Assembly: GCA_945878865.1 (NCBI GenBank)
Contig: CAMCUD010000008.1
Span: 1-64,000 of the forward strand
Direction of reading: 5' to 3'
Origin: Bifidobacterium breve
Lineage (GTDB): Bacteria > Actinomycetota > Thermoleophilia > Solirubrobacterales > Solirubrobacteraceae
Length of the DNA: 64,000 nt
In this document: positions 25,532 to 42,553 of the stretch, piece by piece
How positions within the stretch are numbered: position 1 is the stretch's first letter
How the letters are laid out: each line of letters starts with the position of its first letter
Translations under genes and position numbers: made by a program
The notes under the pieces: generated by a model
Database searches by the model: none
What the model saw: the letters and a program-made list of their open reading frames with translations, nothing else
Told to the model about the DNA's origin: nothing

Positions 25532-26932
25532 TCAGCCTCGCGGCACGAACTCGGGGACGTCGAGCTGGTTGACGCCCAGGCCCGTCTGGCGGACCGACGG
25601 GCGTTCCGCCGGGCGGGACGTCCGCGCGACGCGCGGCTCGCCCTTCGGCTCCTCGAGCACGCGGGTCGAGGGCCGCGCCGGCACCGGGCCGTAGCCCGTC
25701 GCGACGACCGTGATCCAGATCTGGTCGCCGAGCGCCTCGTCGACCATCGCGCCGAAGATGATGTTCGCCTCCGGATGGGCGGCCGCCGACACGGTCTTCG
25801 CCGCCTCGTTGACCTCCCACAGCGACAGGTCCTCGCCGCCCGTGATCGAGAGCAGGATCTTGCGCGCGCCCTCCATGCTGGTCTCCAGCAGCGGGGACGA
25901 GCAGGCCTGCTCGGCCGCGGTGATCGCGCGGTCGTCGCCCGTGCCCATACCGATCCCGAGGAGCGCGTTGCCCGCCTCGGCCATGATCGTCCGCACGTCG
26001 GCGAAGTCGAGGTTGATGATCCCCGGCAGCGTCACGAGATCGGAGACGCCCTGCACGCCCTGACGCAGCACGTCGTCGGCGACGTTGAACGCCTGGACCA
26101 TCGACGTCTGCTTGTCCAGCACGCTGAGCAGCCGGTCGTTCGGCACCGTGATGAGCGTGTCGACCTCCTGCGCCAGCGCGTCGACGCCGAGCTCGGCGGC
26201 TGAACGGCGGCGGGTGCCCTCGAAGCCGAACGGCTTCGTGACGATGCCGACGGTCAGCGCCCCGACCTCCCGGGCGATCCGCGCCACGACGGGCGCCGCG
26301 CCGGTGCCGGTGCCGCCGCCCGCGCCCGCGGCCACGAAGACCATGTCCGAGCCCTTGAGCAGCGACTTGATGCGGTCGTAGTCGGCCATCGCCGCGGCCC
26401 GGCCGAGATCCGGGTCGGCGCCGGCGCCGAGGCCGCGCGTGAGGTCCTCGCCGATGTGGACGGTGAGGTTGGCCGTCGAGGACTGCAGCGACTGCACGTC
26501 GGTGTTGACCGCGATGAACTCGACGCCGTTGATCTGCGCCTCGACCATGCGGTTGACCGCGTTGACCCCGCCGCCGCCCACACCCACAACGCGGATGATC
26601 GGGCTTCCGGCCTTCTGCTCGCCGAACGACGACATCGGCATCGGCGACGTCGAGAACGACGTGTCCTCGGCCAGCGGCCGCTCGGGCTCGTCGTAGGCGA
26701 CGGGCTCCAGCACGTCCTCGGGGACCTCGGAGCTGAACGCGTGGCGCAGGCGCTCCTGGGGACTCGGAACGCGGACGTCCGGCTCCTCGGCGACCGGTTC
26801 GGGCTGGGGCGCGGGCGCCGCAGCGGCGGCCGGCTCCGCCACGGGCGCGGCAGGCTCGGTCTCGGCATCCGTCCGGCGGAACAGCTCGGCCAGCGGCCCT
26901 TCACGCATGCTCGCGCGCTTATCCCTTGCCAT
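25532..26932 (-). CDS. ftsZ: Cell division protein FtsZ with long N-terminal extension
   Basis: A 466-residue tubulin homologue. The GTPase core starts near residue 112 ([18 protein letters not shown]) with the tubulin signature [12 protein letters not shown] at 203-214 and the T7-loop region. The end matches the FtsZ C-terminal peptide ([10 protein letters not shown]), which binds membrane tethers. The first ~110 residues are an acidic, Ala/Pro/Glu-rich segment absent from standard FtsZ, which usually has only 10-30 residues there. ATG 26932 lies inside the end of parA (14-nt overlap), so translation is coupled. No other dcw-cluster gene is nearby. Confidence 0.93.
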
Positions 26933-27698
26933 GTGAGAGCACCTCCTTCGCGAGATCGCGATAGGACTGGGCGGCGACGCCGTCCGGGTCGTACTTGAGT
27001 ACCGACATCCCCTTGACGGGGGCCTCCGCGAAGCGGATGGTCTTGCGGATCCGCGACGCGAAGACGCGGTCGCCGAAGTTCTCCTCCAGCAGGGAGATCG
27101 CTTCCTGCGCATGCAGGGTGCGCGTGTCCACGAGGGTCGGCAGGATGCCCTCGATGTCCACGCCCGGGTTCAGCTCTTCTCGGATCATGTGCAGCGTGTT
27201 CTGCAGCTGGATCAAGCCGCGCATCGACAAATACTCGCACTGCACGGGGACGATCACCTTATGCGCGGCCGTCAGCGCGTTGATCGTGAGCAGCCCGAGG
27301 CTCGGCGGCGTGTCGATGCAGACGAAGTCGTAGTCCATCGCGACACCCCGCAGCGCCTTCTGCAGCGCGCGCTCGCGGCCGATCTTCATCGACATCGCGA
27401 TCTCGGCGCCGGCGAGGTCGATCGACGCGCACGCGACGTCGATCTCGCGGCGGCGGATGACGTCGCGGATCGGCACGTCGTGGACGAGCACGTCGAACAT
27501 CGACGTCTGGACCGTGTCCGGGTCGATCCCCTGCGACATCGTCAGGTTCCCCTGGGGATCCATGTCGACGCAGAGCACGCGGTGGCCCTCCTCCGCGAAG
27601 GCGGCGGCGAGGTTCAGCGTGGTGGTGGTCTTCGCGACCCCGCCCTTCTGATTGGCGAAGGCGATGACCTTGGCGGTGTGCTGCGGCGGCGACTCCAC
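26919..27698 (-). CDS. parA: ParA/Soj-family ATPase
   Basis: A 259-residue ATPase with the deviant Walker [26 protein letters not shown] (Walker A') and [18 protein letters not shown] (Walker B). ParA proteins position cargo such as chromosomes or division machinery by dynamic nucleoid binding. No parB or parS-like palindrome is present. Its direct coupling to ftsZ suggests a role in division-site placement rather than plasmid partition. GTG 27698 is chosen for the upstream CCGGAG ribosome site. An ATG-initiated longer form is possible but less likely. Confidence 0.9.
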
Positions 27699-30700: not shown

Positions 30701-30846
30701 TTCATGACGTATGCGATGTCTTACGTGCTTTGTGTGACGTGCGTTGCATTACGTGCTTTTCTAAACACGCTTCTTGACATACGTATTTAATGTCGTGTAT
30801 TTGTTCTCGCATGTTGTTGCTGCAGTCCACCCGACCAGGAACCGAC
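30701..30846 (+). promoter_or_regulatory. AT-rich promoter region of the dab-pur operon
   Basis: By hand count 50 of the 120 bases at 30701-30820 are G or C (about 42%), against a clearly G+C-rich surrounding. The segment holds repeated T(G/T)ACGT motifs at 30705, 30721, 30735 and 30749 (spacings 16, 14 and 14), an identical TTACGTGCTTT at 30721 and 30749, and the inverted repeat GACAT-N9-ATGTC (30776-30794). TTGACA at 30774-30779 could be a -35 element with a weak -10 near 30797. Regulator unknown. Confidence 0.6.
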
Positions 30847-31062
30847 ATGGCACCCACCCTCACGTCCACCACCCCCCTCGCCACCGACATCGCGATCGCC
30901 ACCGAGCCGGCTGACGCACGCCGCGTCTCTGCCGCCGCGATCGCACGGCATGTGGCCGAGCAGCTGCGCGCCGGCCGCTCGCTGTTCAACGTCATCGATG
31001 ACCCGTACGTCCGGGCCCGGCTGGGCGCCGACGGCCGCGCCCTCCCGGAGACCGCGGCATGA
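30847..31062 (+). CDS. Small protein heading the dab-pur operon
   Basis: A 71-residue protein with a Thr/Ala-rich N-terminus, then an amphipathic helix (RRVSAAAIARHVAEQLRAG) and RSLFNVIDDPYVRARLGADG. ATG 30847 has AGGA 7 bases upstream; its stop overlaps the dabB start (ATGA), so it is translated with the operon. No membrane helix or metal motif is seen. I do not recognise the family; a regulatory or accessory subunit of the carbon-uptake complex is a guess based on position only. Confidence 0.6.
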   Translation: MAPTLTSTTPLATDIAIATEPADARRVSAAAIARHVAEQLRAGRSLFNVIDDPYVRARLGADGRALPETAA

Positions 31063-32516
31063 GCACCCTCGCCCTCATCGCCTGGCTCGCGCCGGGAGTC
31101 GGCGCGCTGCTGGCCGTCGCCGCCGGCCGCCGCGCGGGGCAGGCGGCCGTCATCGGCCCCACCGTCACCGCCGCGATCGGCGCCGCAGCGCTCGCCGGCG
31201 CGCCGATCGCGCCCATCGACGCGGTCGGCGGGCTCATGCTCCTGCTCGTCGGCGGCCTGACCGCCACGGTCCAGAGCTACGCGCTGCGCCAGCTCGCCAA
31301 CTCCCGGGGCGCGGCGCAGACCACCGCGCTGCTCGGCGTCGCGGCCAGCGGCACCTCGGTGTTCGCCACCGCCGAGCCGTTCGTCGCCATCGCGGCCGGC
31401 TGGAGCGTCGCCAGCATCGCCTTCCTCGGCGTCCTCGCCGCGCACCGCCACCTGCCGACTGGCCCCGACGCCCTGCGCCGGGCGATCATCGCCTTCGCGG
31501 TCGCCGACCTCGCCCTGTGGGCGGCGGTCGTCCTCGACGCCACCGGCGCGGAGGCCGGCACGGCGATCGCCGTCCTGCTCGTCATCGCCGCGGCGGCGCG
31601 CGCCGCGCAGTTCCCGCTGCACGGCTGGCTCGTGACCACCGTCGCCGCGCCCACGCCGGTGTGCGCCTTCCTGCACGCGGGGATCGTCAACGCCGGCGGC
31701 ATCCTGCTGCTGCGCCAGCAGGACGTGCTCACCGCCTCCACGCCGGCGATGGCGCTCGCGATCGCGATCGGCGGGGTGACGATGGTCACCGCCGCGCTCG
31801 CCATGGCGGTGCGCTCCGACGTCAAGGGGCAGCTCGCCTGCTCGACGAGCGCGCAGATGGGCTTCATGCTCATGACCTGCGGCCTCGGGGCCTGGGCGGC
31901 CACGATCATCCACATCGTCGGCCACGCGATGTACAAGGCCGCGGGATTCCTGGGCGCGGGCGGCGCCATCGCCGAGCATGTGCGTCGCCGCACGGTGCCC
32001 CTGGCGCCCGCCGCGCACACCGCACCAGCCATCCAGGCGGTGCTGTCGGGCCTCGCGCCCGCCGCCGGGCTGGCGCTCGTCGCCACCGCCGTCGGCGCCG
32101 GGTCCGAGAAGTCGGTGCTGCTCGTCTTCGCCTGGATCACCGGCGCGGTGGCGCTGTGGTCGGCCTTGCGCCGCGCGAACACGCCGGGCGAGATGCTCGC
32201 CGCCTCACTCGTCGCGACGGCCATGGCCGCCGCGTACCTCCTCGGAGCCACCGGCCTCTCCGAGGCCCTCGGACTGCCGTCTGCCGACGGCCACCCCGCC
32301 GCCGCATGGGCGCTCGTGCCGCTGGCCGCCGCGCTCTCCGCGATGCTGGCCTGGCGTCACGGCGGACCGGTCCGCGACCGGCTCTACATGCGCGCTGTGC
32401 GGCTGAGCCGTCCGCGCCCGACCCCGCACTGGCATCTCGGCGGCGACCCCGCCACCCGGCCCGCGTCCGCGGTGTCCGGCCCGTCCACCGCCGTCGCCGA
32501 GGGAGGCGCCGCATGA
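31059..32516 (+). CDS. dabB: DabB: proton-conducting subunit of inorganic-carbon transporter
   Basis: A 485-residue NuoL/MrpA-like membrane protein with about 13 hydrophobic segments. The proton-channel core includes QFPLHGWLVTTVAAPTPVCAFLHAGIVNAGG and the later GHAMYKAAGFLGAGG. On its own this looks like a complex I antiporter subunit, but the overlapping downstream DabA gene identifies it as DabB, which couples the proton motive force to CO2 hydration/bicarbonate accumulation. No other nuo or mrp gene is near. ATG start overlaps the upstream stop; its stop overlaps dabA (ATGA). Confidence 0.9.
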   Translation: MSTLALIAWLAPGVGALLAVAAGRRAGQAAVIGPTVTAAIGAAALAGAPIAPIDAVGGLMLLLVGGLTATVQSYALRQLANSRGAAQTTALLGVAASGTSVFATAEPFVAIAAGWSVASIAFLGVLAAHRHLPTGPDALRRAIIAFAVADLALWAAVVLDATGAEAGTAIAVLLVIAAAARAAQFPLHGWLVTTVAAPTPVCAFLHAGIVNAGGILLLRQQDVLTASTPAMALAIAIGGVTMVTAALAMAVRSDVKGQLACSTSAQMGFMLMTCGLGAWAATIIHIVGHAMYKAAGFLGAGGAIAEHVRRRTVPLAPAAHTAPAIQAVLSGLAPAAGLALVATAVGAGSEKSVLLVFAWITGAVALWSALRRANTPGEMLAASLVATAMAAAYLLGATGLSEALGLPSADGHPAAAWALVPLAAALSAMLAWRHGGPVRDRLYMRAVRLSRPRPTPHWHLGGDPATRPASAVSGPSTAVAEGGAA

Positions 32517-35044
32517 GCCCGACCATCGCCGTTCCCCAGGCCGACGCCCTGCGCCGGCAGGTCGCCGGCATCGCCGCGGAGATCTCGCCCGCCTGGCCGA
32601 TCGAGCGCTTCGTCGCCGTCAACCCCCTCGCCGGGATCGAACACCTCTCGTTCGCCGAGGCGGCCGACCACGCCCAGCGCACCTTCGGCGCGCCCGGGTG
32701 GCGCCCCGAGGACGAGCTGCGTGCCGCCGAGCGCGACGGCCGGATCAGCGAGCACGAGCTGCGCCGCGCGCTGCGGGCGCGGCTCGGTGACCAGGCCGAT
32801 CGCGAGATCAGGCTCGGCGGCCGGACGATCACCCTCGAGCAGCTGTTCCTCACCGACCTGCGGGTCGCCCCCGCGGCCGACCCGCAGCCGCGGCAGACCC
32901 TCACGCCGGCAGAGGCCTGGGGCATGAAGCTCGGCGCGCGCCTGGCGGACGAAGCGGACGAGATGATGACCGGCTGGCTGGCCGCCTACCTCGACGCGGG
33001 CAAGGCCCGCTGGGCCATGCCGCACCGCGAGCGCGGCCTGTACGGCGCGTGGCGGGAGCTGGCCACGCACGACCCCGCGTTCACCAGGGCCGCGCGGCGG
33101 CGGATCGCCGACCTCCCGCAGGACGCAGCAGAGGCGCTCGCCGAGCTGCTCGGCGAGGCCGAGCTCGACGCCGCTGGGCAGGAGCAGCTCCTGCGCGCGC
33201 TGCTGACCCGCCAGCCCGGCTGGTCCTCGCATGCGCGCTGGCGCCAGGAGCAGGTCGGAGACGTCGACTTCACCGACCTCGCGGCGGTGCGCCTGGCCTG
33301 TGAGCGCGCGCTGCTGCACCCCGCGGCGGGCGCCGACGCGCTCGCGCGGGTGCCCGGCGCCCCGGTGCCGCCGGCGCCCGACCCGAGGGCGCGCATGGCG
33401 GCGGTCGCCGCGGCGCTGGGTGTCAGCCCGGACACGCCAGAGCTCGGCGAGGCGCTGGGGATCCTCGGCCCGAGCGCGCGGCCGGGTATCTGGCAGGAGG
33501 CACTGGAGGCGACCTTCCGCGGCGAGCTGCTGCGCAAGATCGACGCCGGCCGGCCCGCCGGCGCGCTGCCCGAGCAGACGCTCGCCCAGGCGGTGTTCTG
33601 CATCGACGTGCGCTCGGAGGTGCTGCGGCGCCACCTCGAGGCCACCGGCCCCTACGAGACGATCGGCTTCGCCGGGTTCTTCGGCCTGGCCGTCGACGTC
33701 CAGGCATTTGGCGGAGACGTCACCACCGAGCAGTGCCCGGTGCTCGTCAAGCCGGCCGCGGTCGTCTGCGAGCGGCCCGACGCCGGCCACGAGCGGGAGG
33801 CTGAGCGCTCGCTGCGCTTCACCGAGCGCCTGGCCGCCGCGCGCGATGCCTGGCAGGGCGCCCGCAAGGGGCTGCTGGCGAAGTACGTCTTCGCCGAGGC
33901 CGTCGGCTTCGTCACGGGCCCCGTCGCCACGGCGAAGACGGTCGCGCCGAACGCCGCGGGCAGCCTCGCCGAGAAGGCCGCTGCCCCGCCCCACGTCCCC
34001 ACCCACATGGACGTCACCTCGCTGCCGCTCGAGGACCGGATCAGCGGCGCGGCCTTCGCCCTGACCGCGATGGGCCTCGTCGACGGCTTCGCGCCGATCG
34101 TCCTGCTCTGCGGGCACGGCTCGACGACGGTGAACAACCCGCACATGGCGGCGCTTGACTGCGGCGCCTGCGGTGGCCACCGCGGCGCGCACAACGCCCG
34201 CGCGATGGCGGCGGTGCTCAACGACCCGGAGGTCCGGGCCGGCGTGGCCGCCAAGGGGATCACGATCCCCGACACCACGTGGTTCGCCGCCGGCGAGCAC
34301 GACACCGCCACCGACGTCGTGCGCCTCCTCGACGAGGACGTGCCGGCCTCGCACCGTGAGGCGCTCGACGCCCTGCGGCGCGACCTCGCCCGCGCGAGCG
34401 CGGCGACGTCGGCCGAGCGCAAGCTCCGGCTCCCCAACGCGGCCGCGTCGAGGGACGGTGCGGAGGAGGCGCTCGTCCGCAGCCGCGACTGGGCGCAGAT
34501 CGCGCCCGAGTGGGGCCTGGCGGGCTGCGCGGCCTTCATCGTGGGCTCCCGCGAGCTGACGGCCGGGCGCGATTTCGGCAGCCGGACGTTCCTGCACTCC
34601 TACGACGCGTCGGCCGACCCGGCAGACGAGGCGCTGACCCTGATCCTCACCGCGCCGCTGGTCGTCGCGCACTGGATCGCGAGCCAGTACTACTTCTCGT
34701 CGGTCGCCCCCGACCAGTTCGGCGCCGGGACTAAGATCTCGCACAACGTGGTGAGCGGCATCGGCGTGCTGAGCGGACCAGGCGGTGACCTCCGCGGCGG
34801 TCTCCCCTGGGAGTCCGTCGGGGTCGGCGAGCGCCTCGAGCACGAGCCCATGCGCCTGCTCGCGGTCGTCGACGCCCCGCGCGACCGCATCGACGGGGTG
34901 CTCTCCGGCGCTCCGCAGGTCGAGCGGCTCATCGACGGCGAGTGGATCACTCTCGTCGCCCGCGACGACGCCTCAAGCCCCTGGCTGCGCCGCATGCCGG
35001 GTGGATCGTGGGCGCCGCACGAGGGCCTGGAGGTCGCCGCGTGA
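32513..35044 (+). CDS. dabA: DabA (DUF2309): carbonic-anhydrase-like subunit of DAB transporter
   Basis: An 843-residue DUF2309 protein. The four zinc-site residues known from Halothiobacillus DabA (Cys, Asp, His, Cys) are visible: C363 and D365 in VFCIDVRSE, H535 in LCGHGSTT and C550 in LDCGACGGH. Their spacing (2 residues; 15 residues) equals that in the studied protein. DabA is thought to hydrate CO2 vectorially on the cytosolic side, energised by DabB. ATG 32513 overlaps dabB; the open frame upstream of it is non-coding shadow of dabB. The stop overlaps the purK GTG. Confidence 0.93.
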   Translation: MSPTIAVPQADALRRQVAGIAAEISPAWPIERFVAVNPLAGIEHLSFAEAADHAQRTFGAPGWRPEDELRAAERDGRISEHELRRALRARLGDQADREIRLGGRTITLEQLFLTDLRVAPAADPQPRQTLTPAEAWGMKLGARLADEADEMMTGWLAAYLDAGKARWAMPHRERGLYGAWRELATHDPAFTRAARRRIADLPQDAAEALAELLGEAELDAAGQEQLLRALLTRQPGWSSHARWRQEQVGDVDFTDLAAVRLACERALLHPAAGADALARVPGAPVPPAPDPRARMAAVAAALGVSPDTPELGEALGILGPSARPGIWQEALEATFRGELLRKIDAGRPAGALPEQTLAQAVFCIDVRSEVLRRHLEATGPYETIGFAGFFGLAVDVQAFGGDVTTEQCPVLVKPAAVVCERPDAGHEREAERSLRFTERLAAARDAWQGARKGLLAKYVFAEAVGFVTGPVATAKTVAPNAAGSLAEKAAAPPHVPTHMDVTSLPLEDRISGAAFALTAMGLVDGFAPIVLLCGHGSTTVNNPHMAALDCGACGGHRGAHNARAMAAVLNDPEVRAGVAAKGITIPDTTWFAAGEHDTATDVVRLLDEDVPASHREALDALRRDLARASAATSAERKLRLPNAAASRDGAEEALVRSRDWAQIAPEWGLAGCAAFIVGSRELTAGRDFGSRTFLHSYDASADPADEALTLILTAPLVVAHWIASQYYFSSVAPDQFGAGTKISHNVVSGIGVLSGPGGDLRGGLPWESVGVGERLEHEPMRLLAVVDAPRDRIDGVLSGAPQVERLIDGEWITLVARDDASSPWLRRMPGGSWAPHEGLEVAA

Positions 35045-36195
35045 GCACCGTCTCTGCACCGGCGACGCCGACCGCCCGCGTGGGCATCGTCGGCGGCGGC
35101 CAGCTCGCGCGGATGTCGCAGGCCGCGGCGATTGCCCTGGACGTCGAGCTGCACGTGCTCGACGCCGCGGGAGCGCCCGCGGCGGCCGCCGGCGCCCAGC
35201 TGATCGAGGGCTCGTGGGAGTCCCTCGACGACCTCGCGCGGCTGGCCGCCGACGTCGACGTCGTGACGTTCGACCACGAGTTCGCCGACCGCGAGGCGCT
35301 CCAGGAGCTCGCGCGGCGCGGCGTCGTGATCCGCCCGCACCCGGACGTCAAGCGCCTCGCCCAGGACAAGCTGCACATGCGCCGCACGCTCGGCGACCAG
35401 CTCGGCCTGCCCGTCCCGGCGTTCGCTGAGGTCCACGAGGCGGCAGACGTCGAGGCGTTCGCGCAGGCCAACGGCTGGCCGGTCGTCCTCAAGACGATCA
35501 CCGGCGGCTACGACGGCAAGGGCGTGCAGGTGGTCGACACCCCGCGGGAGGCGGCCGAGACGATCGCCGCGTTCGGCGCGCCGGTGCTCGCCGAGGCGCT
35601 CGTCGGCATCGACCTCGAGCTCTCGGCGATCGTCGCCCGCGCCGCGGGGACCGGCGAGGTCCGCGCCTACCCGGTCGTCGAGACCCTTCAGGTCGACGGC
35701 ATCTGCAACGAGGTGGTCCTCCCCGCGCGCGTCGACCCCGTGATTGCCGCGAGGGCCGACGCGCTCGCGCTCGAGCTCGCCGAGGCGATCGGGCTCGAGG
35801 GCCTGCTCGCCGTCGAGCTCTTCGTCAGCGACGGCGAGCTGCTCATCAACGAGCTGGCGATGCGCCCGCACAACTCCGGCCACGTGACGCTCAACGGCTG
35901 CCTGACCTCGCAGTTCGAGCAGCACCTGCGCGCTGTGCTCGGCTGGCCGCTCGGCGCCACACGCGCCGTGGCCCCCGCCGCGGCGATGGTCAACGTGCTC
36001 GGGCCGGCCGACGGCAGCGACCCGGGCGACCGCATCGCCGCGGCACTGCACGTCGAGGGCGCGCACGTCCACCTGTACGGCAAGGCGCCCCGCCCGGGGC
36101 GCAAGCTCGGCCACGTCACGGCACTGGGGCCGGACGGCGACGCGGCGCTGGAGTCCGCGCGCGCTGCGGCCGCGATCCTCGAGGGGGAACGATGA
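35041..36195 (+). CDS. purK: N5-carboxyaminoimidazole ribonucleotide synthetase
   Basis: A 384-residue ATP-grasp enzyme: [11 protein letters not shown] at the N-terminus, [15 protein letters not shown] in the ATP-binding lid and [18 protein letters not shown] at the catalytic end. PurK uses ATP and bicarbonate to carboxylate AIR in purine synthesis. GTG 35041 overlaps the dabA stop (GTGA), so it is translationally coupled to a bicarbonate-supplying system, which makes metabolic sense. The stop overlaps purE. Confidence 0.95.
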
Positions 36196-36683
36196 GCGCA
36201 CCGCGCGTCGGCGTCGTCATGGGCAGCAAGTCCGACCTGCCGGTCATGCAGGCCGCGGCGGATGCGCTGGCGGAGTTCGACATCTCGCACGAGGTGCGGG
36301 TCGTCTCCGCACACCGTACGCCCACCCAGATGATCGCCTACGGCCAGGAGGCCGAGCGGCGGGGCCTCGAGGTGATCATCGCGGGCGCCGGCGGCGCCGC
36401 GCACCTGCCCGGCATGCTCGCGTCGGTGACGCCGCTGCCGGTCATCGGGGTCCCCGTTCCCCTGAAGTACCTCGACGGCCTCGACAGCCTGCTTTCGATC
36501 GTGCAGATGCCCGGCGGCGTGCCCGTCGCGACGGTCGCCGTCGGCAACGCCCGCAACGCGGGCCTGCTGGCGGTCCGCATCCTCGGCGCCACCGATCCCG
36601 CGCTGCGGGGCCGGATCGCCGACTTCCAGACCGCGATCGGTGACGCATCACGCGCCGCCGACCGTGAACTCAACGACGCCTGA
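36192..36683 (+). CDS. purE: N5-CAIR mutase
   Basis: A 163-residue class I Pur[31 protein letters not shown] with the catalytic His, and [14 protein letters not shown]. It converts N5-CAIR to CAIR after PurK. ATG 36192 overlaps the purK stop (ATGA). It closes the five-gene coupled run. Confidence 0.96.
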
Positions 36684-36736
36684 GCGTCACCCGATTCGAC
36701 ATGCCCAACGACCACCCGGACCAGGGAGGACGACCC

Positions 36737-37558
36737 GTGCTCCGACAGAAGCGCCTACTCATCACCGGTCTCGTGACGACCGACAGCATCGCCTTCGCCG
36801 TCGCCGAACGCGCGCAGCTCAACGGCGCGACGATCGTGCTGTCGGCGCTCGGCCGCGACCTCGAGCTCGCCGAGGCGGCCGCTGCCAAGCTGCCGTCGCC
36901 CGCGCCGCTCATCGAGATGGACGTGACCCGCACCGAGGATCTCGACGCGGGCCGGGAAAAGATCGGCGAGCTGCTCGGCGGGCTCGACGGGGCGCTGCAC
37001 GCGGTGGCGTTCGCGCCCCGCGACGCGCTCGGCGGCGACCTCATGGCCGCGCGGCCGGAGGGCATCGAGCTCGCGTTCCGCACGAGCGCGTGGTCGTTGG
37101 CCGGGGTGGCGGGGATCCTCCGCGACCTCGCGCCGGCGTCCGGCGGCTCGCTCGTCGGCCTGGACTTCGACGCCGACGGCGGCGCCTGGCCGGTCTACAA
37201 CTGGATGGGCGTCTGCAAGGCCGCGCTCCAGTCGACGTCCCGCTACCTGGCGCGCGACCTCGGCCCGCGCGGGATCCGCGTGAACCTCGTTGCCGCCGGG
37301 CCGCTGCACACCCGGGCGGCCGGCGGGATCCCCGGCTTCGATCACCTCCTCGAGGCGTGGGAGCGCCAGGCGCCGCTGGGCTGGGACCCGCGGGACGCCG
37401 GGCCGGCGGCGGACGCCGCGGTATTCCTGCTCACCGACTGGGCGCGCGCGATCACCGGTGAGGTCCTGCACGCCGACGGCGGCTATCACGCGATGGCCGC
37501 CCCGCCGGCGACGACCGACGTGCCGGAGGGTCAGGAGCGCCGCGCGTACGCGACGTAG
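36737..37558 (+). CDS. Enoyl-ACP reductase, InhA/FabI-like
   Basis: A 273-residue SDR protein of the divergent enoyl reductase type: LLITGLVTTDSIAFAVAERA replaces the usual TGxxxGxG, and the Y-x6-K pair is in VYNWMGVCKAALQS, with RVNLVAAGPLHTRAAGG and a C-terminal GEVLHADGGYHAM. These match InhA (mycobacterial FabI), which reduces 2-enoyl-ACP with NADH in fatty-acid elongation. GTG 36737 with GGGAGG 10 bases before is preferred over ATG 36701. Its final 28 bp overlap the convergent NHL gene. Confidence 0.88.
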   Translation: MLRQKRLLITGLVTTDSIAFAVAERAQLNGATIVLSALGRDLELAEAAAAKLPSPAPLIEMDVTRTEDLDAGREKIGELLGGLDGALHAVAFAPRDALGGDLMAARPEGIELAFRTSAWSLAGVAGILRDLAPASGGSLVGLDFDADGGAWPVYNWMGVCKAALQSTSRYLARDLGPRGIRVNLVAAGPLHTRAAGGIPGFDHLLEAWERQAPLGWDPRDAGPAADAAVFLLTDWARAITGEVLHADGGYHAMAAPPATTDVPEGQERRAYAT

Positions 37559-39417: not shown

Positions 39418-39504
39418 GGATGGACGCCCGACGATACGCCCGCGAACGGGCGCGAACTGTCACCTGCCTGACACGAACACGGTCGGGTGCGCGACGGAGC
39501 GGCC

Positions 39505-41250
39505 ATGGGCCTGAAGACGAGGCGGACGATCGTGGCGCTCGTCGCCGCGGCGATCGCGATCGCGGCTGGGGCGGTGGTGGCGTTGACCGACGTGCTGCAC
39601 CGCGCGGAGCTCTCGAGCGTCGACGCGCGGTTTCAGATCCGCGGCGAGCAAGCGGTCCCGGACGACGTGGTGTTCGTGGCGATCGACGAGGAATCCATCG
39701 CCGACATCGGGAACTGGCCGTTCCCGCGCGGCTTCCATGGGGACGTCATCAACCGGCTGCTCGACCAGGGCGCGAAGGTCATCGCGTTCGACGTGGAGTT
39801 CAGCCAGGAGTCGGACTCCCCGGCCGACGACGCGGCGCTGCGCCGCGCCGCCCGCCGAGCGGGGGATCGCCTCGTCCTGGCGAGCGCCAGTGTGCTCGAC
39901 GGTCGCCCGTTCGTCGCGATCGGACGCGAGGAGTTCAGGGCCCCGGGCGTCGCGAAGGGCGACGTGAACTTCCGCCTGGACCCCGGGGGCTACTACCGGC
40001 GCGTCGGCATGATCGACGGCACGCCGCACTTCGACACCGAGGCCGTGCGGCTCGCCGGGCAGCCGATCCCCGCGCCGGCCCTCAGCGCCGACCCTGGCCA
40101 GTGGATCGACTACGTGGGCGACAGCGGGCGGATCCGGCGCGTCCCCTACGTGGACGTTCTCGACGGCAAGGTGCCCGACGACGTCATCCGCGGCAAGATC
40201 GTCGTCGTCGGCCCGGCGGCGTCATCCCTCCGTGACGAGCACCCGACGCCCACCGCGCAGGCGATGGACGGCGCCGAGATCCACGCCAACGCCATCGCCA
40301 CCCTCGTACGCGGCGTCCCGCTCAGCGACGCCCCCGGCTGGTGGACCGCGCTGCTCATCGTCATCGCGGGTGTCGCCGCGCCGCTCGCCGGCGCGCTGGC
40401 CCCCGTCCGCCGCGCGCTCATCGCGTCCCTGCTGGCAGGTGTCGGCGTCATGGTCGGCGTGCTCATCGGCACCCAGCTCGCGTTCCAGGCGGGCCGCGTC
40501 GTCGAGCTCCTTCCCGCGCTGACCGCCGGCGTCGTCGGCACCGTCGGCGCGCTCGGCGGCACCTACGCCACCGAGCTGCGCCGCCGCGCCCAGCAGCGCC
40601 GGGTCTTCGAGCGCTTCGTCCCCGAGGCCGTCGTCGGCGAGGTGCTCGACCGCATGGACGGCCAGGCCCGCATCGCCGGCATCCAGCGCGACGGCACCGT
40701 GATGTTCTGCGACCTCCGCGGCTTCACGAGCTACGCCGAGTCGCTGCCCGCCGAGCGCGTCTTCGAGGTGCTCAACGCGTATCTCGGCGAGGTCAGCGAC
40801 GCGATCCTCGACCACGGCGGCACGCTCGTGACGTACCTCGGCGACGGCGTCATGGCGGTGTTCGGCGCGCCGCTCGCCCAGGATGACCACGCCGACCGCG
40901 CGCTCGCCGCGGCGCGGGAGATCCTCGACGTGCGGCTGCCGCGCTTCAACGCGCAGGTCGGCGGTGACTTCCGCATCGGGATCGGCCTGCACTCCGGCGC
41001 GGTGATGTCGGGCAACGTCGGCTCGGAGCGACGCATGGAGTACGCGGCCGTCGGCGACGTCACGAACACCGCCGCACGACTGCAGGGTGAGACGAAGGGC
41101 ACCCCGCATCAGCTGCTGCTCAGCGACGCGACCCGCACCGCGCTCCAGCACGACCCGGGCGACCTCGTCGGCGCCGGCGCGTTCGCGCTGCGCGGGCGCG
41201 AAGAGCCGGTGACCTGCTGGTCGTTGGGATCCCCCGGTCCTTCGACCTGA
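39505..41250 (+). CDS. CHASE2-domain class III adenylate cyclase
   Basis: A 581-residue sensor cyclase: N-terminal membrane helix, extracytoplasmic CHASE2 domain (about 30-240, with DDVVFVAIDEESIADIGNWP and FDVEFSQES), two or three membrane helices (about 260-330) and a C-terminal class III cyclase (about 380-570). Both metal-binding Asp are present (MFCDLRGFTSY and YLGDGVMAVFG) and the transition-state Asn/Arg in GDVTNTAARLQ, so it should be active; cAMP is the likely product. ATG 39505 has GGAG 6 bases before; an in-frame GTG at 39487 is the alternative. Confidence 0.92.
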   Translation: MGLKTRRTIVALVAAAIAIAAGAVVALTDVLHRAELSSVDARFQIRGEQAVPDDVVFVAIDEESIADIGNWPFPRGFHGDVINRLLDQGAKVIAFDVEFSQESDSPADDAALRRAARRAGDRLVLASASVLDGRPFVAIGREEFRAPGVAKGDVNFRLDPGGYYRRVGMIDGTPHFDTEAVRLAGQPIPAPALSADPGQWIDYVGDSGRIRRVPYVDVLDGKVPDDVIRGKIVVVGPAASSLRDEHPTPTAQAMDGAEIHANAIATLVRGVPLSDAPGWWTALLIVIAGVAAPLAGALAPVRRALIASLLAGVGVMVGVLIGTQLAFQAGRVVELLPALTAGVVGTVGALGGTYATELRRRAQQRRVFERFVPEAVVGEVLDRMDGQARIAGIQRDGTVMFCDLRGFTSYAESLPAERVFEVLNAYLGEVSDAILDHGGTLVTYLGDGVMAVFGAPLAQDDHADRALAAAREILDVRLPRFNAQVGGDFRIGIGLHSGAVMSGNVGSERRMEYAAVGDVTNTAARLQGETKGTPHQLLLSDATRTALQHDPGDLVGAGAFALRGREEPVTCWSLGSPGPST

Positions 41251-41905: not shown

Positions 41906-42553
41906 ATGACGTCTGCAGCGGAGCGGGTGCGTGTCCTCGTCGCCGACGACCACCCGCTCTTCCGGGAGGCGGTCGCCCGCGCCGTGCGGGAACGCCCGGA
42001 GTTCGAGCTCGTCCGCGAGGTCGCCGACGGCCGGGAGGCCCTCGACGCCATCCGCGAGCTCGCGCCCGACGTGGCGGTCCTCGACGTCAAGATGCCGATC
42101 CTCGACGGGCTGCAGGTGCTCAACGCGATCACCCGCGAGGGCCTGCCGACCCGCGCGGTCCTGTTGACCGCGTACCTCGACGGGCCGATCGCGTTCGAGG
42201 CGGTCGCCGCGGGCGCCGGGGCGGTGCTCTCCAAGGAGGCAGACCGCCGCGCGATTGCCGACGCGGTCGCCGCCGTCGGCCGGGGCGAGACGGTGCTCGG
42301 CGCCGAGGTGCAGAGCGGACTGGCCGCGGAGATCCGCCTGCGCGGCACGCCGGACCGGCCGCCGCTCTCGGCGCGCGAGCAGGAGGTGCTGCGGTACGTC
42401 GCCGAGGGGCAGTCCGCTCCGCAGATCGCCGAGGCGCTCGTGCTCTCCCCGACGACCGTCCGCAGCCACCTGCAGAGCCTGTACGAGAAGCTCGGCGTCT
42501 CCGACCGGGCCGCGGCGGTCGCCGAGGCGATGCGCCGGGGTCTGCTGGAGTAG
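41906..42553 (+). CDS. NarL/LuxR-type response regulator
   Basis: A 215-residue regulator: receiver domain (about 8-125) with VLVADDHPLFREAV, phospho-acceptor Asp in DVAVLDVKMPILDG and conserved Lys in AVLSKEAD, then a LuxR HTH (about 150-212, LSAREQEVLRYVAEGQS ... SPTTVRSHLQSLYEKLGV). Its stop overlaps the kinase start by one base (TAGTG), so it pairs with that kinase. DNA target unknown. Confidence 0.94.
   Translation: MTSAAERVRVLVADDHPLFREAVARAVRERPEFELVREVADGREALDAIRELAPDVAVLDVKMPILDGLQVLNAITREGLPTRAVLLTAYLDGPIAFEAVAAGAGAVLSKEADRRAIADAVAAVGRGETVLGAEVQSGLAAEIRLRGTPDRPPLSAREQEVLRYVAEGQSAPQIAEALVLSPTTVRSHLQSLYEKLGVSDRAAAVAEAMRRGLLE

Follow-up and report, generated by a model that had tools for sequence, protein, structure and literature searches.

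We analysed a 64,000-nucleotide stretch of DNA (hereafter the window; positions 1 to 64,000 of the forward strand of contig CAMCUD010000008.1, assembly GCA_945878865.1), which is labelled Bifidobacterium breve and placed by GTDB in the Solirubrobacteraceae, focusing on a run of genes in which a DAB-type inorganic-carbon pump is joined to purK and purE. On the plus strand, an open reading frame (ORF) for a 71-amino-acid protein (30847..31062) opens the run and is followed by dabB (31059..32516), encoding the membrane (proton-channel) subunit of the predicted pump, dabA (32513..35044), encoding its zinc CO2-hydrating subunit, purK (35041..36195, with a GTG start), encoding a predicted N5-carboxyaminoimidazole ribonucleotide (N5-CAIR) synthetase that uses ATP and bicarbonate, purE (36192..36683), encoding a class I type N5-CAIR mutase, and a fabI-type enoyl-acyl carrier protein reductase gene (36701..37558), which closes the conserved order. 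Every junction from the small ORF to purE consists of 4 shared bases (ATGA or GTGA); these overlaps and the gene coordinates had been given in an original prediction made from the sequence, and both were borne out on re-reading. That prediction had left out fabI, which starts 17 nt past purE (or 54 nt past it, should translation begin at the GTG at 36738), as well as a promoter-like stretch at 30773..30804 (+) in which a conserved motif, TTGACATACG-N9-TCGTGTATT, is embedded.

The identities of these genes are based on profile and structure matches. DabA matched PF10070 at 794.5 bits (cut-off 25) and aligned over nearly its full length with DabA2 of the solved Halothiobacillus neapolitanus DAB2 complex (PDB 9rd0_A, E 3.2e-115); C363, D365, R367 (completing the Asp-Arg dyad), H535, and C550 align with the zinc site of that protein, and the four zinc ligands named in the original prediction lie where it had placed them. 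DabB matched PF00361 (90.9 bits), with DabB2 of the same complex (9rd0_B, E 7.7e-33) as its top PDB match. The pair thus combines the sequence features of a DAB pump, namely a PF10070 protein with a Cys/Asp/His/Cys zinc site and an adjoining PF00361 protein whose gene overlaps dabA by 4 bases. PurK exceeded the cut-offs of two models (TIGR01161, 361.3 versus 318.4 bits; NF004680, 405.1 versus 327), as did PurE (TIGR01162, 214.7 versus 149.6; top PDB match 3lp6) and FabI (NF005908, 313.4 versus 299) with one model each. The operon PurE carries SAHRTP and GGAAHLPG motifs and adjoins its partner purK, as expected of class I. The 71-amino-acid protein gave no family in Pfam or NCBIfam searches; it precedes dabB at seven loci (in the window's own genome, G000 in our sample numbering, and in G140, G141, G114, G083, G074, and G078), and a core of GRSL(F/Y) ... 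DGRAL is conserved between the window and loci L021, L022, L026, L028, L002, and L003.

Conservation was surveyed in samples of 146 genomes from the family, 329 from the class, and 396 from the phylum. Twelve of the 146 family genomes encode dabA, and in five of these, belonging to three genera, it adjoins purK (G000, G140, G141, G041, and G051; G140 is apparently Svornostia abyssi CP088295, locus L002). The order dabB-dabA-(PII)-purK-purE-fabI is found in G000, G140, G141, and G041 (there over two contigs, with a PII-family gene between dabA and purK), and recurs in a second family in G725 of the class sample, where dabB-dabA-PII-purK-purE-fabI lie on one strand; the possibility, raised with the original prediction, that the linkage is peculiar to this strain therefore did not hold. 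G051 has a dabA-purK-fabI run without purE, its dabB lying on a separate contig beside a regulator gene. The fabI gene is located 3' of purE in G140, G141, G041, G035, G116, and G725, and 3' of purK in G051. No dabA was found in G116, in which a PII fragment, purK, purE, and fabI lie at a contig end; given the position of that fragment, dabA may be unassembled there. In G114 the arrangement is dabB-dabA-PII-fabI, with purKE on a different contig. Of 36 actinobacterial genomes with dabA, 10 have a PII-family gene directly 3' of it. A DabA tree, with five of its rows less than half filled and 7 of its 20 inner branches open, did not group the linked dabA genes, so that it demonstrates neither an ancient operon of single origin nor assembly on several occasions. 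At seven loci of the phylum sample (L142, L144, L146, L147, L150, L158, and L160), dabA matches are flanked by two DabB-like matches, in most cases with an additional DabB-like match a few kb on.

The place of the pump before purK may be taken by SbtA, a sodium-bicarbonate transporter unrelated to DAB. An sbtA gene lies directly 5' of purK in G034, G035, G037, and G044 (family f1, genus g11) and in G701 (family f2), as identified by PF05982 at 359-362 bits in the three proteins scanned (G035, G044, and G701) and by tblastn at approximately 70% identity in G034 and G037; in G035 and G701 the sbtA and purK reading frames share 8 bases. Within genus g11, the slot holds SbtA in four PurK genomes and DAB in one (G041). 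In G659 (L193 2649-3061, minus strand), SbtA-like matches occur in pieces 5' of purK, perhaps reflecting a decayed or diverged gene.

The distribution of dabA falls within that of PurK in the family and class samples. An operon-type PurK was identified in 28 of the 146 family genomes (27 at E <=1e-90, and G075 with a fragment of 68 residues), and two divergent proteins (G052 and G054) bring the PurK-positive set to 30; a further 14 genomes, in which the sole PurK-like protein is more remote (E 1e-35 to 1e-18, approximately 31-38% identity), were scored negative, those also present in the class sample falling below the TIGR01161 cut-off. All 12 dabA genomes are PurK-positive (one with the PurK fragment only), versus 30/146 overall (hypergeometric, 7e-10). 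Stratification by genus gives an exact p of 1.5e-6, which is driven by one genus (dabA in 6/7 PurK-positive versus 0/21 PurK-negative genomes), and counting one gain per genus gives 0.02. In the class sample all 10 dabA genomes over the cut-off are PurK-positive, versus 79/329 (4e-7, uncorrected for kinship); eight of the 10 also belong to the family sample, and G708, with a weak dabA match below the cut-off and no PurK over the cut-off, was left out. Around purK in the 30 PurK-positive family genomes we found DAB in five and SbtA in four; one (G116) has a PII fragment there, located where the contig ends, and in seven dabA lies elsewhere.

The motif upstream of the operon was evaluated with a 32-base weight matrix built from seven regulator-adjacent or sbtA-purK sites, none from the window's genus, which themselves scored 16.5-53.2 bits when left out in turn. 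In the window the matrix scored 45.1 bits at 30773-30804; the runners-up, 17.9 (30703) and 13.8 (30761, overlapping), also lie in this intergenic stretch, the best score elsewhere in the 64 kb was 12.3, and 20 pair-shuffles gave at most 10.8. At the equivalent place before the operon, S. abyssi scored 37.9 and G141 28.7. Further loci outside the training set scored 38.0 (G041 dab), 37.6 (G074), 36.6 (G183), 28.3 (G505), 27.3 (G037), 25.8 (G308), 25.3 (G051), 23.7 (G371 and G725), 21.6 (G044), 20.8 (G035), and 19.7 (G701). It is important to note that the background is that of the GC-rich window, so AT-richer DNA is overscored and values near 20 mean little. Among 19 purK loci without a DAB or SbtA match, 18 scored at most 7.2 and G082 scored 11.8. 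One training site (G041 contig C306) precedes a CNNM-type gene rather than dab; in G041 (L257 3336-3930), a regulator gene and the motif precede a gene for a CNNM/CorC-type membrane protein, with a weak small-protein match between. Within the window, three copies of a 20-base unit with 14-base spacing (30712-30759) lie 5' of the operon promoter, a repeat not found in the equivalent stretch of two sister species.

A small winged-helix gene is divergent from dab in G725, G183, G075, G079, G082, G083, G114, G078, G051, and G361, and from sbtA-purK in G035, G044, and G701. The homologue is not located near dab, sbtA, or purK in G000, G140, G034, or G142, so that a role for it in these four genomes is presumptive.

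The original prediction had described a purine operon; purK and purE are indeed present, but no other purine genes occur here, and purD, a second purE, and purB are found on another contig (C66) of the same genome as a purD-purE-NUDIX-purB run (the NUDIX label is our own reading; purD and purB score over the cut-off). Twelve family genomes lacking PurK encode a PurE in which variants of SAHRDP and GAGLSAALPG replace the class I motifs (SAHRTP at the first); the gene for this PurE adjoins purD in 11 of them and purB in the twelfth. Judged by gene content, these genomes must make carboxyaminoimidazole ribonucleotide (CAIR) without PurK, and the purD/purB-linked PurE presumably takes CO2 directly; they are comparable to the PurK-less organisms described in part of PMC3261824, and passages of that paper and of PMC10880623 associate the absence of PurK with high CO2. 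Assignment of the purD-linked PurE to class II (Treponema type) was not supported: the top matches of the C66 copy, itself atypical, are other PurE chains, and 3rg8 is not among its matches at 1e-5. This copy (L031 3981-4469, minus strand) falls under the TIGR01162 cut-off (136.9 versus 149.6) and has altered GTKRH, SAHREL, and GLAAALPG stretches where two sister species retain the usual residues. Of 66 positions that do not vary among the 12 PurK-less genomes, 6 are changed in this copy (0-4 of 66-70 when each of those genomes is left out), compared with 7 in G083, 7 plus 3 gaps in G114, 12 in G127, 5 each in G011 and G051, and 0 in G140, G141, G041, and G034, a pattern only suggestive of decay of the purD-linked PurE in G000. 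As for loss of the purD-linked PurE in other lineages, 11 of the 28 genomes with operon-type PurK have just one PurE match, which is of class I type, but some of these 11 are incomplete drafts. The window's genome has one DabA copy. At E 1e-30, FabI is present in three copies per genome in the window's genus (3 genomes) and in a single copy, that behind purE, in G725, G041, G035, and G116.

Upstream of the operon lie genes for two ArsA-type ATPases (one BagB-like, under the cut-off of that model) and a Crp-type regulator, the BagB-like and Crp genes being found at the equivalent position in G140 and G141. Elsewhere in the window we observed a protein with CHASE2 and adenylate/guanylate cyclase domains near the operon (39487-41250, +), a LuxR-type response regulator near it (41906-42553), and an FtsZ-family protein with approximately 170 residues ahead of its GTPase domain (25532-27112, -), the frame start of which may be too early.

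Taken as a whole, we consider it likely that these genes form a co-transcribed operon responding to low CO2, in which pumped bicarbonate feeds PurK together with other carboxylases. DabAB would turn incoming CO2 into cytosolic bicarbonate, driven by the proton gradient; proton-gradient-driven bicarbonate formation has been proposed for DAB2 in the part of PMC13144422 consulted, a paper in which the Asp-Arg dyad was mutated. PurK would convert bicarbonate and ATP to N5-CAIR and the class I PurE would convert this to CAIR, making purine synthesis possible at low CO2, and passages of PMC10880623 report that PurK consumes bicarbonate and that cyanobacterial purK mutants require high CO2. Growth of Cupriavidus lacking carbonic anhydrase is rescued by DAB, according to passages of PMC9894237. 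The same bicarbonate pool would serve acetyl-CoA carboxylase and other carboxylases. The conserved motif near the promoter may be the site of transcriptional control, perhaps through binding of the small winged-helix regulator, and a shared operon for pump and consumer would ensure that the costly bicarbonate route is made when its substrate is pumped. The position of fabI suggests that lipid synthesis, begun by the bicarbonate-dependent acetyl-CoA carboxylase, may be tuned by the same signal. In this order, PurK/PurE seems to substitute for, or serve as a backup to, the purD/purB-linked PurE that most relatives use without PurK.

A number of observations weigh against this account. Neither dabA nor SbtA was seen beside purK in 13 of the 30 PurK-positive genomes, in stretches of varying length (in G057 and G128 a contig end cuts the upstream side of purK), and purK is not beside dabA in seven of the 12 family dabA genomes. 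Beyond the class, dabA occurs in 22 genomes of the phylum sample, and tblastn with the window proteins found neither purK nor purE in wide dab stretches from 20 of them (G320 and G342 left out); since purK was likewise not seen near dabA in three non-actinobacterial relatives, the linkage is confined to this order among the genomes examined. In the window's genus, neither a PII gene nor the regulator was found beside the operon. The winged-helix family is also not exclusive to such loci, matching in 47/146 family genomes, and four of the 20 strongest matches (at least 120 bits) are in genomes without operon-type PurK, 16 being in PurK-positive ones. The motif is weak or absent in G361 (13.4), G424 (11.7), G252 (10.4), G114 (8.9), G225 (5.5), G625 (2.4), G377 (1.1), and G659 (0.6), and the best scores in the other 13 phylum dab genomes range from -1.4 to 17.9, save for 22.6 far from dab in G284. 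In G725, G035, G701, G034, and G037 the best match is on the strand opposite the operon, and there the motif is a possible shared operator rather than the operon promoter. Finally, the window's genome contains a beta-carbonic anhydrase-like gene, so DAB is not its sole bicarbonate source. The encoded PF00484 protein has CMDAR and HTDC stretches, and such matches occur in 136/146 family genomes including G000 (11 strong and full length, the others mostly partial at approximately 45 bits), leading us to reject DAB as a simple substitute for an absent carbonic anhydrase.

That DabAB is a general bicarbonate supply resembling MpsAB of Staphylococcus aureus, with purKE-fabI as co-regulated low-CO2 passengers and PurK in no privileged position, is a strong competitor that we place a little short of even. 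It accounts for fabI in the conserved order and for dabAB near fabI where purK is absent, as in G114 and in three of the 20 stretches from outside the class (G371, G308, and G361), and passages of PMC6689103 name pyruvate carboxylase, acetyl-CoA carboxylase, and carboxylation of aminoimidazole ribonucleotide (AIR) as sinks. A general supply does not explain why purKE repeatedly accompanies either of two unrelated transporters, DAB and SbtA, or why dabA is limited to PurK-positive genomes in both samples. The fabI evidence does make the original wording, a supply dedicated to purine synthesis, go too far, as do the seven dabA genomes with purK elsewhere and the ability of such a transporter to supply all bicarbonate-using enzymes. 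PurK and DAB may also both be mere markers of low-CO2 habitats, which would have selected PurK and carbon transporters separately, their adjacency arising by ordinary operon shuffling. While PurK distribution is tied to CO2 availability in passages of PMC3261824, and the unlinked dabA genomes would be expected in that case, a gene order shared by two families, overlapping genes, the presence of SbtA where DAB would stand, and the common motif make such independent assembly unlikely. Support of CO2 fixation in an unrecognised autotroph is very improbable. DAB is best known from autotrophs, but a search for the RuBisCO large chain (PF00016) found none in the window's genome (one genome, 96% complete; controls positive in 5/14; other fixation pathways not searched), and the neighbouring genes are biosynthetic; autotrophy based on RuBisCO was therefore rejected. 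The heterotrophic use presumed in the original prediction agrees with this result, within the same limits of the search, but was not new, as heterotrophic DAB use, with AIR carboxylation as a possible sink, is already found in the part of PMC6689103 consulted, and part of PMC9894237 describes a general bicarbonate need of heterotrophs.

Comparison with known systems places the proposed bicarbonate-feeding operon among families that are all known. The window resembles H. neapolitanus DAB2 in its DabB-DabA pair, zinc ligands, and Asp-Arg dyad, but H. neapolitanus is an autotroph, whereas the window has a 71-amino-acid protein 5' of dabB and purK-purE-fabI 3' of dabA. In cyanobacteria, SbtA is partnered by the PII-like SbtB; relatives of the window similarly have SbtA 5' of purK or a PII-family gene 3' of dabA, whereas the window itself carries DAB and has no PII gene beside the operon. 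MpsAB is likewise a DAB-type pair from a non-autotroph, needed at atmospheric CO2, but the portion of PMC6689103 consulted mentions no purK/purE linkage. Unlike plain PurK/class I PurE, the bicarbonate transporter here shares the operon. In the literature searched we found no paper describing an operon that combines purK with dab or sbtA, nor any mention of the exchange of DAB for SbtA or of the shared motif.

The operon offers a genomic test of why heterotrophs retain inorganic-carbon pumps, given that the pump is predicted to share an operon with one particular biosynthetic step that uses bicarbonate, and that two unrelated pumps occupy the same slot. It also predicts a regulator and an operator for inorganic carbon in actinobacteria. 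More broadly, and in a proposal that we regard as almost evenly poised, purine synthesis in the Solirubrobacterales may be shifting, lineage by lineage, from a PurK-free, CO2-using PurE to a bicarbonate-fed module in which DAB or SbtA is transcribed together with PurK-PurE(-FabI), and in some cases a PII-type sensor, from one conserved low-CO2 operator. Such a bicarbonate operon would serve anabolism instead of CO2 fixation.

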